Source: Affinundibacterium baiyunense (GTDB lineage: Bacteria > Pseudomonadota > Gammaproteobacteria > Burkholderiales > Burkholderiaceae_D). Taken from it: DNA of 64,000 bases. The DNA is taken from the NCBI RefSeq assembly GCF_018139645.1, contig NZ_JAGSPM010000008.1, positions 124,001 through 188,000 on the forward strand. The letters are read 5' to 3'. Below are positions 13,466 to 16,683 of this stretch, in pieces. The notes beneath the pieces were generated by a model. That model made no database searches, was not told where the DNA came from, and saw nothing but the letters and a program-made list of their open reading frames with translations. The position numbers and the translations under genes were made by a program. The first letter of the stretch is position 1, and every line of letters begins with the position of its first letter.

Positions 13466-14362
13466 TTACTGATGTGTATCTTGAAATTGCTGGGTATTTT
13501 TGTAGACGCTTGCTTCACCTTGTGGTCGTGTTTTGAAGCGGCGGTGGGTCCAGAAATATTCGGCTGGCATCTTCAAGATTTCTGATTCGATATAGGCGTT
13601 CATAAAACGGGTAGAGCTAACGATATCGGTATGCGGGTAGTCTTCCCAAGCTTGATCAAACTTCACATTCCAACCATCGTAGCCCGGACGTATGCTGGCG
13701 ATCACCGGAATCACTTTGGCATGAGTTGCCGCGGCAATTCGTGGCAATGCGGTGAGTGTCGCAGCGGGGACACCAAAGAAGGGCACAAATTCTGCATCTT
13801 TGGCACCAAAATCCATGTCGGGTAACATGAAGAATGGCAGATTTTCCTTCATCGCGCGAATGATAGGTTTGACACCTTCTGCACGTGAAAATAATTTTAC
13901 TGGACGAAAACGTGAGCGACCTTTGCGCAACGCCTTATCGAAAGTTTTGTTTCTTTGCGTGGTGTAGATCGAGCAGAGTGAAGATTCCAACATTACTGCA
14001 ACACCCGCAACATCGAGACTCACAAAATGTGGGCACATGAAAATTGTTGGTGAGCTCGTCATTTCCGCCACCGGCATGGCATAGTCGACATGAATTAATT
14101 TACGTAGACGGCGTTCGGAAGACCACCAGAGAATACCTCGTTCCAATACGCTACGCACATAGACTTGAAAATGGCGTCGCGTGATTTTCTTTCTTTCTGA
14201 CTCTGGCATTTGCGGAAAACATAAGCGCAGATTCGTTAAACAGATATGGCGACGGCGACTCAAAATGAGATATAAAAGACTACCTAAGCCTTCGCCAATA
14301 CGCGCCAAGATCGGCAGCGGCAACCAGTGCAGCAGCCACATAATTAGTACGGCAAATCTCAT
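13466..14362 (-). CDS. lpxL: Lipid A biosynthesis acyltransferase (LpxL/HtrB family), second of pair
   Basis: Inner-membrane enzyme adding a secondary acyl chain from acyl-ACP to lipid A. One N-terminal membrane helix (VLIMWLLHWLPLPILARIG), then the catalytic HX4D motif in 'CPHFVSLDVAG', the 'FFMLPDMDFG' block and the C-terminal 'EYFWTHRRFKTRP', all hallmarks of the family. 298 aa. It overlaps the upstream acyltransferase by 4 bp (14359-14362), so the pair is translationally coupled. The two differ enough to suggest different acyl positions or chain lengths, but which is laurate-like and which myristate-like cannot be decided here. Confidence 0.9.
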   Translation of the reverse strand: MRFAVLIMWLLHWLPLPILARIGEGLGSLLYLILSRRRHICLTNLRLCFPQMPESERKKITRRHFQVYVRSVLERGILWWSSERRLRKLIHVDYAMPVAEMTSSPTIFMCPHFVSLDVAGVAVMLESSLCSIYTTQRNKTFDKALRKGRSRFRPVKLFSRAEGVKPIIRAMKENLPFFMLPDMDFGAKDAEFVPFFGVPAATLTALPRIAAATHAKVIPVIASIRPGYDGWNVKFDQAWEDYPHTDIVSSTRFMNAYIESEILKMPAEYFWTHRRFKTRPQGEASVYKNTQQFQDTHQ

Positions 14363-15219
14363 GCGTTTTCCTGTGATTGGGTTTCTTCTGGACCAGTGAC
14401 ACCATCTGGTTTTTTATAGCGGTGATAACTCCAGAAATACTGACTTGGCACCTTGGCGATGAGTTTTTCCATTGCTTGATTAATCGCGCGGGCTTGTTGT
14501 GCGGCGTCGCCGTCGAGTGACTCAGTAAAGGGAACAAAGCGTTGCACGAAGCCACGACCGAAAGGCAGGCGCTCGGCATAGGTCAAGATAATTGGCGCAC
14601 CTGTCATCGCCGCTAATTTGGCAGATAAAGTCATGGTGTAAGCTGGTTTCCCAAAAAAATCAGCCCACACGCCTTCACCCTCTTGCGGTACTTGGTCGGG
14701 TAATAAGCCGATCGCTTCGCCTTTTTTTAAGGCTTTAGCCAAAGCACGAACGCCGGATAAATTAGCGGGTGCTAATAACATGCCACTGGATGCGCGTGCG
14801 TCTTCAAGTAGCGGCTTCAAAGCGTCTTTTTTTGGCTGTCTGTATAGCACAGTCATTTTGGTGCGTAAGGCGATAGATTTTCCAGACAGTTCAAAACAAC
14901 CTAAATGCGGTGTCAAAAAAATCACGCCTTTTTTGGCATCAATCGCAGCCTGCGCGATTTCCCAATTTTCTAATCGAACCTTGGCGGCCAATCGTTCTGG
15001 TTTGCCTAACCAAATCAGCGGCAATTCCATAATATTTTTGCCAGCTTCGCGCAATGCGACACCGACTTGCCCTTCGCAAGAGGCGAGTGCCATATTGCTA
15101 CGCATGCGTTTGCGATAAGTTGGCGATAGGGCGTACACCACATAGCCAAGAATGACACCGACAAAGTGCAGGACAGGAAGTGGGAAAACCGATAAAAAAC
15201 GGAACAGACGAATTAACAT
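14359..15219 (-). CDS. lpxL: Lipid A biosynthesis acyltransferase (LpxL/LpxM family), first of pair
   Basis: Same family as its downstream neighbour: N-terminal membrane helix (LSVFPLPVLHFVGVILGYVV), catalytic HX4E in 'TPHLGCFELSG', 'GLLPDQVPQEGEG' and C-terminal 'QYFWSYHRYKKP'. 286 aa. It is the first gene of a two-gene unit that diverges from metK; lpxL pairs beside metK are a familiar Burkholderiales arrangement. The shared 285-bp intergenic region must carry this gene's promoter as well as the long metK leader. Confidence 0.9.
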   Translation of the reverse strand: MLIRLFRFLSVFPLPVLHFVGVILGYVVYALSPTYRKRMRSNMALASCEGQVGVALREAGKNIMELPLIWLGKPERLAAKVRLENWEIAQAAIDAKKGVIFLTPHLGCFELSGKSIALRTKMTVLYRQPKKDALKPLLEDARASSGMLLAPANLSGVRALAKALKKGEAIGLLPDQVPQEGEGVWADFFGKPAYTMTLSAKLAAMTGAPIILTYAERLPFGRGFVQRFVPFTESLDGDAAQQARAINQAMEKLIAKVPSQYFWSYHRYKKPDGVTGPEETQSQENA

Positions 15220-15295
15220 GAGTCTGGAAATGATGGTGAATTACTAAGAGTGATGGATTTTTTCATATTGATACACCTCAAAAATCTAAGGCAAT

Positions 15296-15325
15296 TCGAC
15301 ATGAATCCTGTAAGAGGCGTAAAAT
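15296..15325 (+). promoter_or_regulatory. Candidate sigma-70 promoter for metK
   Basis: TCGACA (15296-15301) and TAAAAT (15320-15325) separated by 18 nt. Initiation near 15332 would give a leader of about 170 nt containing the whole putative riboswitch. Matched by eye only. Confidence 0.35.
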
Positions 15326-15396
15326 AGCACATATTGGCACCTGAATGAAATGATGCAGAGCGATCTGTCAGCATATCTTGAAGTAAATCAGGCGCC

Positions 15397-15505
15397 CCCG
15401 CCGAGTTAAATAGACAACTTGCGAAGCGGGTAATAAATTTCGCTAAAGCGTCGCAGGAACTCTTTCTTACTGCGACTTTACGTCACATTTTATAGGAGCC
15501 TGCGA
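15397..15505 (+). promoter_or_regulatory. Putative SAM-II-type riboswitch and start-codon switch in the metK leader
   Basis: An H-type pseudoknot can be drawn: P1 CCCGC (15397-15401)/GCGGG (15426-15430); loop 1 with GAGTTAAA; P2b GAC (15413-15415)/GTC (15450-15452); P2a TTGC (15419-15422)/GCTAA (15442-15446); an 11-nt loop 3, TAATAAATTTC. The order and the words TTGC, AATAAAT and GCTAAA agree with the SAM-II class as I remember it; the usual GATTT is GAGTT here. Downstream, TCGCAG(G) at 15451-15457 can pair either with CTGCGA (15470-15475) or with CCTGCGA (15499-15505), which reaches the metK start codon just after the AGGAG at 15494-15498. Placement before the SAM synthetase gene fits feedback control. 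Fold and class were judged by eye. Confidence 0.7.
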
Positions 15506-16683
15506 TGGCAAATGATTTTCTCTTCACCTCAGAATCAGTTTCTGAAGGTCACCCAGACAAAGTTGCGGATCAAATTTCTGATGCAATTTTAGATGCAATC
15601 TTCGAGCAAGACCCACGTTCCCGCGTAGCTGCTGAAACCCTTGTGAATACTGGCTTAGTGGTATTAGCTGGCGAGATCACGACGAATGCACATGTCGATT
15701 ATATTCAAGTTGCACGCGATACCATCAAGCGTATTGGTTACGATAATACCGAATATGGTATTGATTACAAAGGCTGTGCGGTTTTGGTGGCTTACGATAA
15801 GCAATCGAATGATATCGCGCAAGGTGTTGATCATGCATCCGATGACCATTTGAATACAGGCGCGGGCGATCAAGGTTTGATGTTTGGTTATGCTTGTGAC
15901 GAAACGCCAGAACTCATGCCCGCACCGATCTACTACGCGCATCGTTTGGTAGAGCGCCAAGCGCAATTGCGTAAAGATGGTCGCTTGCCGTTCTTGCGTC
16001 CTGATGCAAAAGGTCAAGTGACGATGCGTTATGTTGATGGCAAACCGCACAGTATCGATACAGTCGTTTTGTCGACACAACATAGCCCAGATCAAAGCGA
16101 TGGTAATAAGATGAAGCCATCGTTTATCGAAGCAGTTGTTGAGGAAATTATTCGTCCAGTATTGCCAGCAGAGTGGTTGAAAGATACGAAGTTCTTGATC
16201 AATCCTACCGGTCGCTTCGTGATCGGTGGTCCACAAGGTGATTGTGGTTTAACTGGTCGTAAAATCATCGTTGATACTTACGGCGGTGCTTGCCCTCACG
16301 GTGGCGGCGCTTTCTCTGGTAAAGATCCTACAAAAGTCGATCGTTCTGCCGCCTATGCGGCACGCTATGTGGCGAAAAATATTGTCGCAGCTGGTTTGGC
16401 AAAGCAGTGTCAGATTCAAGTGGCGTATGCGATTGGCGTGGCACGTCCTATGAATGTGACGGTGTACACTGAAGGTACGGGCGTAATTCCAGATGAGCAA
16501 ATCGCTGCTTTAGTGAACGAGTATTTTGATTTGCGTCCACGTGGCATTATTCAAATGCTTGATTTATTGCGTCCAATTTATCAAAAGACTGCAGCATACG
16601 GTCACTTCGGACGTGAAGAACCTGAATTCACTTGGGAACGTACTGACAAAGCGCAAATCTTACGCGCTGCCGCTGGTTTGTAA
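15505..16683 (+). CDS. metK: S-adenosylmethionine synthetase
   Basis: Makes SAM from methionine and ATP as a cytoplasmic tetramer. The whole sequence is canonical: '[13 protein letters not shown]' (ATP and Mg), '[12 protein letters not shown]' loop, '[19 protein letters not shown]' region and the '[23 protein letters not shown]' signature (K+ and phosphate binding). 392 aa. AGGAG six bases before the ATG. The long leader with a SAM-II-like pseudoknot suggests product feedback. Its terminator lies 76 bp past the stop, inside the next open frame. Confidence 0.98.

Follow-up and report, generated by a model that had tools for sequence, protein, structure and literature searches.

A putative SAM-II-type riboswitch variant in the metK leader of Affinundibacterium baiyunense and its relatives

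The window, by which we mean the whole 64,000-nucleotide stretch of DNA that was analysed, carries on its plus strand a gene for S-adenosylmethionine synthetase, metK (15505–16683, 392 aa), which matched TIGR01034 with 585.1 bits (cut-off 309.4) and whose product is 99% identical to MetK of U. macrobrachii. We take the host to be an Undibacterium-like member of the Oxalobacteraceae. The gene 5' of metK (14359–15219) lies on the minus strand and starts at 15219, leaving an intergenic gap, 15220–15504, common to both genes. Within this gap lies an RNA element (15397–15452) whose 3' end is separated by 52 nt from the start of metK, the only gene downstream of it; its placement before a SAM synthetase gene, as given in an earlier note on this DNA, was confirmed. 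A Shine-Dalgarno (SD) sequence, AGGAG (15494–15498), is followed by CCUGCG and the ATG start codon (15505–15507).

Read directly from the sequence, the element forms an H-type pseudoknot on the plus strand, in which we use SAM-II numbering for single bases. Its first helix, P1, joins CCCGC (15397–15401) to GCGGG (15426–15430). Loop 1, the third strand (GAGUUAAAUA, 15403–15412), begins at G15403 (GAGUUAA...) and places G15405 at the position of U10 in SAM-II, U15406 at U11 and U15407 at U12. P2b is made of GAC (15413–15415) and GUC (15450–15452), the latter also used by an alternative hairpin described below. AAC (15416–15418; A17 A18 C19), the 5' side of the putative three-by-three ligand core, faces AGC (15447–15449). 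In P2a, UUGC (15419–15422; U20 U21 G22 C23) pairs with GCUAA (15442–15446), leaving U15444 unpaired, and the 3' strand together with the core reads GCUAAAGC (15442–15449; G42 C43 U44 A45 A46 A47 G48 C49). Loop 3 (UAAUAAAUUUC, 15431–15441) is 11 nt long and A/U-rich, a length and composition presumably shared by the SAM-II sequence of structure 2QWY. The earlier note had laid out this same pseudoknot, with a 5-bp P1, P2b, P2a, three bases on each side of the core and an 11-nt loop 3, and all of its pairings were found in place. It had also singled out GAGTT in loop 1 as a deviation, which is indeed present but occurs throughout the class and is not peculiar to the window sequence.

A promoter-like site on the plus strand, with a -35 box TCGACA (15296–15301) and a -10 box TAAAAT (15320–15325), agrees with the promoter pattern at 10 of 12 bases; two such sites were found in the leader region of the window, against 0.8 expected. 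The -10 box is enclosed by CGTAAAATA (15318–15326, plus strand), which recurs in the family, lying at most 100 nt from P1 in 84 of 103 distinct family upstream regions where shuffled sequences lead one to expect 0.05. In other families, a TATAAT-like box begins 11–13 nt 5' of P1 in 22 of 35 leaders (expected 1.2), so transcription there probably begins at the aptamer itself.

The leader was matched in all 39 genomes of the same genus, and 34 of the 39 alignments begin at 15393–15398, beside P1. We then considered metK leaders across the family, taken from 85 places of one search and from 35 of the 39 same-genus places. The element is present in 119 of these 120 leaders, among which some genomes are represented twice (118 by script and one with N's, L043, by eye); in the exception, L044, from a genome of 2.2 Mb, inspection by eye revealed no more than a remnant. 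Some relatives (L047, L066, L152, L155, L200 and L201) have a metK element whose loop 3 is tens of bases longer, in a few of them with an apparent hairpin by eye, and L039 and L192 have an insertion in loop 1. The Rfam model for SAM-II with long loops (RF01726) was tried on 17 loci, 12 of them picked for a long loop 3, and gave no match at E ≤1.

The earlier note had named covariation of P1 and P2b among related metK leaders as a check on the fold. From 83 distinct family cores, 35 sequences were chosen for an alignment, A1. All six P1 pairs changed on both sides in A1, with 22 such cells compared with 8.1 in shuffles, and pairing was 95.4% in register but at most 47.1% when the partners were slid; the sixth pair is C-A in the window, and 26 of the 35 sequences have C-G there. 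Within the family P2b is invariant and P2a varies at one cell, so covariation speaks neither for nor against P2a, and the support for the two helices has to come from more distant relatives. Among 226 rows from across families, the A18 class (172 rows) contains 23 distinct P2b strand combinations, for example GAC/GUC, GAAC/GUUC, CAGC/GCUG and CGUC/GACG. Pair 15-51 was kept in 20 of the 23 (2000 shuffles: mean 12.1, maximum 18) and pair 14-52 in 22 (mean 14.3, maximum 19), values whose significance the shuffles overstate because the genomes are related; pair 16-50 hardly varies and pair 13-53 is unsupported. The G18 class, for the most part of the terminator type, comprises 52 rows with 44 combinations; here pair 15-51 is supported, with 1 of 2000 shuffles reaching the observed value, and pairs 14-52 and 13-53 received no support from the shuffles. 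The check thus came out in favor of the fold for all of P1 within the family and, across families, for pairs 15-51 and 14-52 of P2b.

Next, we compared the element with the known SAM riboswitch models. At gathering thresholds, an Rfam scan of the whole window returned a tRNA only. RF00521 (SAM-II) aligned end to end, model positions 1–79 to 15388–15466, with 14.9 bits, which falls short of its gathering cut-off of 36 bits; its E-value was 0.35 over 4227 families in the 221 bases of the leader, or about 8e-5 for one family named beforehand (0.35/4227). At E 0.001, RF00521 had no match in the organism's own genome. The earlier note had made its reading depend on a significant match to a SAM model, and the outcome was divided: a sub-threshold match to RF00521, and no match at E ≤10 in 15300–15520 to any other SAM model, including RF01826, which we take to be SAM-V, and SAM/SAH (RF01727). 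The same scan bears on whether the element is a SAM-V or SAM/SAH riboswitch and not SAM-II. SAM-V has the SAM-II core and acts on translation (PMC6061858), and a SAM/SAH riboswitch is described upstream of metK (PMC2864571), but with neither model matching the leader even at E ≤10 this assignment is disfavoured, and we give it next to no chance.

We then built a covariance model, R1, from the 35 metK leaders of A1 with P1 as its sole structure. R1 scored 79.9 bits on the window element; its next match in the 4.27-Mb genome scored 19.4 bits and proved to be a second SAM-II-like leader, located before metH (G000:C47:473478-473534; L123:1501-1557:+), with U10, GAUUUGA and a terminator. The metH at this site is a 470-aa piece whose best family is methionine synthase, below the whole-protein cut-off. 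Although trained on metK leaders alone, R1 recovers RNAs that Rfam classes as SAM-II: it matched sites scoring 44.8 (L171), 42.1 (L194), 39.1 (L174), 36.1 (L170) and, from a separate scan, 39.7 bits (L222) with RF00521, where the cut-off is 36. RF00521 in turn matched 18 of 20 R1 loci scanned at E ≤1, four of them above the cut-off and 14 with 23.1–33.3 bits. The genes downstream of inspected R1 matches are metK, metZ (NCBIfam, L167), a cystathionine gamma-synthase family gene (L174) and metH (L123); by eye, matches also precede metX-, metY- and metF-like genes, among others. The SAM-II-like reading of the earlier note is thus supported by covariation and by the RNAs exceeding the RF00521 cut-off that R1 finds, with SAM as the presumed ligand. 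Because the window element stays below the RF00521 cut-off and lacks U10, we file it as a SAM-II variant and not as a member of RF00521; that it would work like SAM-II is well supported.

R1 also showed how widely such elements occur. Matches were found in 66 of 397 genomes of the phylum; of 300 genomes from the order, 207 had a match, counted irrespective of the gene downstream, which varies. Some are long, spanning 158 nt in L299 and 127 nt in L324. In a set of 80 titled metK loci, selected for the similarity of their MetK, an R1 match lay shortly upstream of metK in 78 at E ≤0.01, including records titled Roseateles, Polaromonas, Acidovorax, Comamonas, Hydrogenophaga and Ramlibacter; the weakest were L291 (E 0.0023) and L298, where the element is cut by a contig end, and the two misses were L330, with no match, and L328, with just 3 bases upstream.

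Some of the loci hold more than one copy. Same-strand pairs of SAM-II-type matches were seen in 21 of 100 sources, some of which had been chosen for tandems, typically with the terminator type first (L141, L142, L147, L148, L156, L157, L170, L171, L193, L250–L253, L255, L259 and others). In several tandems the second copy is followed by a small ORF starting with MYDC or MFDC, which had no Pfam match in L141 and L170, and next by a transporter of the MATE type (TIGR00797, 261.2 bits in L141; others by eye), an arrangement that could possibly be a SAM-linked exporter operon. In another family, f54 (L214, L217, L219, L221 and L228), leaders of the SAM-II type whose P2b is, for example, CAGC/GCUG stand before ORFs of about 101–106 aa, of which those in L214 and L221 show just a faint resemblance, below cut-off, to MetW or a methyltransferase (E 0.048 and 0.094). 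This family may be Pseudomonadaceae, since L228 also carries Rfam P11 (91.1 bits).

A further Rfam family, RF02424 (Bp2_287), is described as a Burkholderia sRNA upstream of methionine genes (PMC3521395). A SAM-II-like core was found by script and eye in 11 of its best 12 matches, including all three over the cut-off; L359 was without a core. In all 11 the RF02424 model runs on the strand opposite the core (e.g. L349:1501-1673:-, L350:1501-1677:+ and L351:1501-1703:-), and a terminator-like hairpin often lies 3' of the core. Four of these loci scanned with cmscan had no RF00521 match at E ≤0.5. From these sequences, it seems that RF02424 models the antisense, that is the wrong, strand of such leaders.

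We next asked how much of the ligand pocket is kept. In SAM-II, the O4 atoms of U11 and U21 point towards the sulfonium, the adenine is read by U44, and A47 contacts the methionine end and G22 a hydroxyl, all at fully conserved positions (PMC3764141). The window keeps 12 of the 13 pocket bases listed there (U11, U12, U20, U21, G22, C23, G42, C43, U44, A45, A46 and A47), and the thirteenth, U10, is G in the window and in most aligned metK leaders. In a second alignment, A2, of 122 matches from 100 chosen sources, some picked as tandems, so that its proportions are not frequencies, U11 was kept in 121, U12 in 120, each of U20, U21 and G22 in 118 and C23 in 117 (gaps and one change accounting for the rest of these last four), U44, A45 and A46 in all 122, and A47 in 121. 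The bases at positions 13 and 18 were A-A in 64 rows, G-G in 50, A-G in one and G-U in two, with five gaps. A homopurine A-A/G-G pair between loop 1 and the 5' strand of P2 had been predicted for SAM-II from mutual information (PMC2258182), and positions 13 and 18 would fit that pair as it is worded there.

Position 10 in A2 was U in 78 rows, G in 41 and a gap in three. By gene, the metK rows had 29 G, two U and one gap, and the other rows 76 U, 12 G and two gaps; among 106 distinct family metK cores, G occurred in 104, U in one and C in one. G10 as a strict marker of metK had to be rejected, since metK leaders with U10 (L159, L196 and L266) and G10 leaders before other genes exist. In SAM-V, U47 reads the adenine and accepts a hydrogen bond from U8 of the third strand (PMC6061858); by our own alignment this U8 equates with U10 of SAM-II. 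G10, with its imino donor, may likewise donate a hydrogen bond to U44, which would explain why U and G prevail at this position.

The same exchange could be read as a change of ligand, in which an aptamer with the SAM-II fold still controls metK translation while G10 and the metK context shift the ligand or the selectivity, for example to SAH or to the SAM/SAH ratio. G10 would replace the base adjoining the partner of the SAM adenine, if the U8–U47 contact of SAM-V (PMC6061858) is carried over by our alignment of U8 with U10, and it tracks metK (29 of 32 metK against 12 of 90 other A2 rows, and 104 of 106 distinct family cores). However, the two bases with O4 atoms at the sulfonium, U11 and U21, are retained, as are U44 and A47; G too would offer U44 an imino donor, and G10 and metK part company in both directions, as seen above. 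We consider a shifted ligand unlikely.

We next examined how the aptamer could act on metK. A terminator search found no terminator in the window leader. A looser script flagged seven of the 41 G10 rows, of which, by eye, L169 and L170:2295 look real and the window, L138, L140, L171:2248 and L176 appear spurious, as do some of the flagged U10 rows, among them L141:1501 and L202. Directly 3' of P2b, the flank GCAGG-AA-CUC (15453–15462, plus strand) is complementary to 15496–15503 (GAG CCUGC), with a duplex energy of -16.8 kcal/mol computed for L001, whose sequence is identical. This pairing takes in part of the SD and the bases leading up to the start codon.

The pairing between flank and SD recurs in relatives. 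In the family, 120 leaders were given and 20 dropped (16 duplicates, L044 with no core, and L068, L082 and L083 as too short), and the remaining 100 had a mean duplex of -14.92 kcal/mol with their own partner, -13.77 (sd 0.16) with swapped partners and -7.57 with shuffled flanks. In other families (40 given, five duplicates dropped, n = 35), the values were -14.91, -10.48 (sd 0.41) and -8.77 kcal/mol. None of 200 swaps reached the own value in either set, suggesting that the flank and the SD region change together. A duplex of -8 kcal/mol was reached in 83 of 100 family and 33 of 35 other-family leaders; it was weaker in 17 of the family leaders (e.g. L036, L049 and L055). This complementarity is independent of whether P2 forms, and the leader could in principle be an operator for a ribosomal or RNA-binding protein, or an sRNA, that shares the pseudoknot by chance and has no small ligand. 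The match to the pocket, the covariation of the homopurine pair and the recovery by R1 of RNAs over the RF00521 cut-off are unexpected for an unrelated leader, and make such a reading extremely unlikely.

A second structure competes with P2b in the prediction. An alternative hairpin between GUCGCAG (15450–15456) and CUGCGAC (15470–15476), spanning 15450–15476 on the plus strand, excludes P2b, and it was present in the minimum free energy (mfe) fold at the tested transcript ends 15477, 15485, 15492 and 15500; at 15507 the SD helix replaced it. In the family, the P2b strand takes part in the local mfe fold of 107 of 116 leaders, and blocking this strand costs 4.85 kcal/mol on average. As a general mechanism the hairpin had to be rejected, the P2b strand being paired in just 10 of 40 other-family leaders.

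We then computed the effect of P2 on the SD by equilibrium folding, for sets that left out 13 of the 120 family and 5 of the 40 other-family leaders. The unpaired probability of the SD was 0.264 in the free RNA and 0.257 with P2 blocked in the family (n = 107), and 0.198 and 0.187 in other families (n = 35), whereas that of the start codon rose from 0.273 to 0.836 in the family and from 0.378 to 0.477 in other families. The full free transcript of the window also folds to the SD helix. As proof of the direction of the switch, equilibrium folding therefore failed, as the SD is paired with or without P2 and blocking P2 exposes the start codon. Because the direction is left unproven by these calculations, a kinetic step must be assumed, and the folding model suggests that the choice between P2b and the hairpin would be made during transcription. 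The opening of the start codon on blocking the P2 strands could be taken to mean that SAM frees the start codon and that the aptamer is an ON switch. Yet the SD remains paired in the folding, the change at the start codon is smaller in other families, and SAM activating the gene for its own synthetase would be a positive feedback. Such feedback is contrary to the usual logic of SAM riboswitches, and we hold an ON switch to be very unlikely. The OFF direction therefore relies on this gene logic and on the precedent of SAM-II and SAM-V (PMC6061858, PMC9373788), by which the switch is most likely OFF with SAM.

Taken together, our data make it highly probable that the metK leader is a SAM-II-type aptamer, of a G10 variant, joined to a translational platform, in which SAM locks P2b, the SD is covered and MetK translation goes down, and in which the hairpin leaves the SD open when SAM is absent. 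In this mechanism, binding of SAM would lock P2b including GUC (15450–15452); GCAGG..CUC would then pair with GAG-CCUGC and cover the SD region, and less MetK would be translated. Without SAM, GUC would be freed into the GUCGCAG/CUGCGAC hairpin, which would take up the anti-SD bases while the transcript emerges and leave the SD open.

It is possible, though we put it forward tentatively, that G10 elements form a SAM-II subtype with a function of its own, which evolved alongside metK, and that the change from U to G beside U44, the short P2b and the anti-SD platform together retune affinity or kinetics. If so, a G10 switch on metK translation and a U10 terminator switch on metH would respond at different SAM levels in one cell, one setting SAM synthesis and the other the supply of methionine. 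The role of position 10 can be tested within one organism, because nearly all aligned copies have U or G there (the exceptions being three gaps and one C) and both G10 and U10 copies occur in one Undibacterium genome. In a different family, f13, metK (identified by eye) is preceded by a terminator-type SAM-II with U10 (L266:206-278:+, RF00521 41.7 bits; also L354), suggesting that the metK switch differs between lineages.

SAM-II as such, its presence in beta-proteobacteria, its translational form and tandem pairs of terminator and ribosome-binding-site (RBS) type are already known. The earlier note had described SAM-II as best known from Alphaproteobacteria; the surprise that this implies is lessened, as SAM-II was reported in beta-proteobacteria in 2007 and 2009 (PMC2258182, PMC2704228) and, of 200 genomes from the order, 36 have an RF00521 match over the cut-off and 89 have one reaching E 0.01. 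In the open-access literature searched, we found no description of a SAM-II riboswitch on beta-proteobacterial metK, of the G10 class or of its platform. A 2014 survey of methionine regulation places SAM_alpha only in Rhizobiales and Rhodobacterales and states that SAH riboswitches do not control metK (PMC4239095), a gap that a metK-linked element of the SAM-II type fills.

Among known systems, the same survey describes a beta-proteobacterial 'metXZ' RNA element with two interleaved helices before metX or metZ and a terminator downstream (Leyn 2014, PMC4239095). Compared by description only, it agrees with the terminator-bearing R1 or RF00521 matches upstream of metZ, metX-type and metH genes; in that description, as consulted, the element has neither a metK site nor an assignment to SAM-II. 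SAM-V, from marine bacteria, has a nearly identical SAM-binding core and controls translation, but it has a P3 and holds the SD within its own short 3' helix (PMC6061858), unlike the window element, in which no SAM-V match was found at E ≤10. Of tandem SAM-II, 44 pairs have been published, some with the terminator first and the RBS type second (PMC9481103), and similar pairs occur in relatives here, whereas the window metK leader is a single copy. With SAM-II itself (RF00521 SAM_alpha; structure 2QWY), the element shares the H-type pseudoknot, the P1/P2a/P2b plan, U11, U12, U20–C23 and G42–A47, the homopurine pair 13-18 and a methionine or SAM gene downstream; it differs in its score of 14.9 bits against the cut-off of 36, in G10 for U10, in metK as its gene, and in a 3-bp P2b that runs into an anti-SD helix and not into a terminator.
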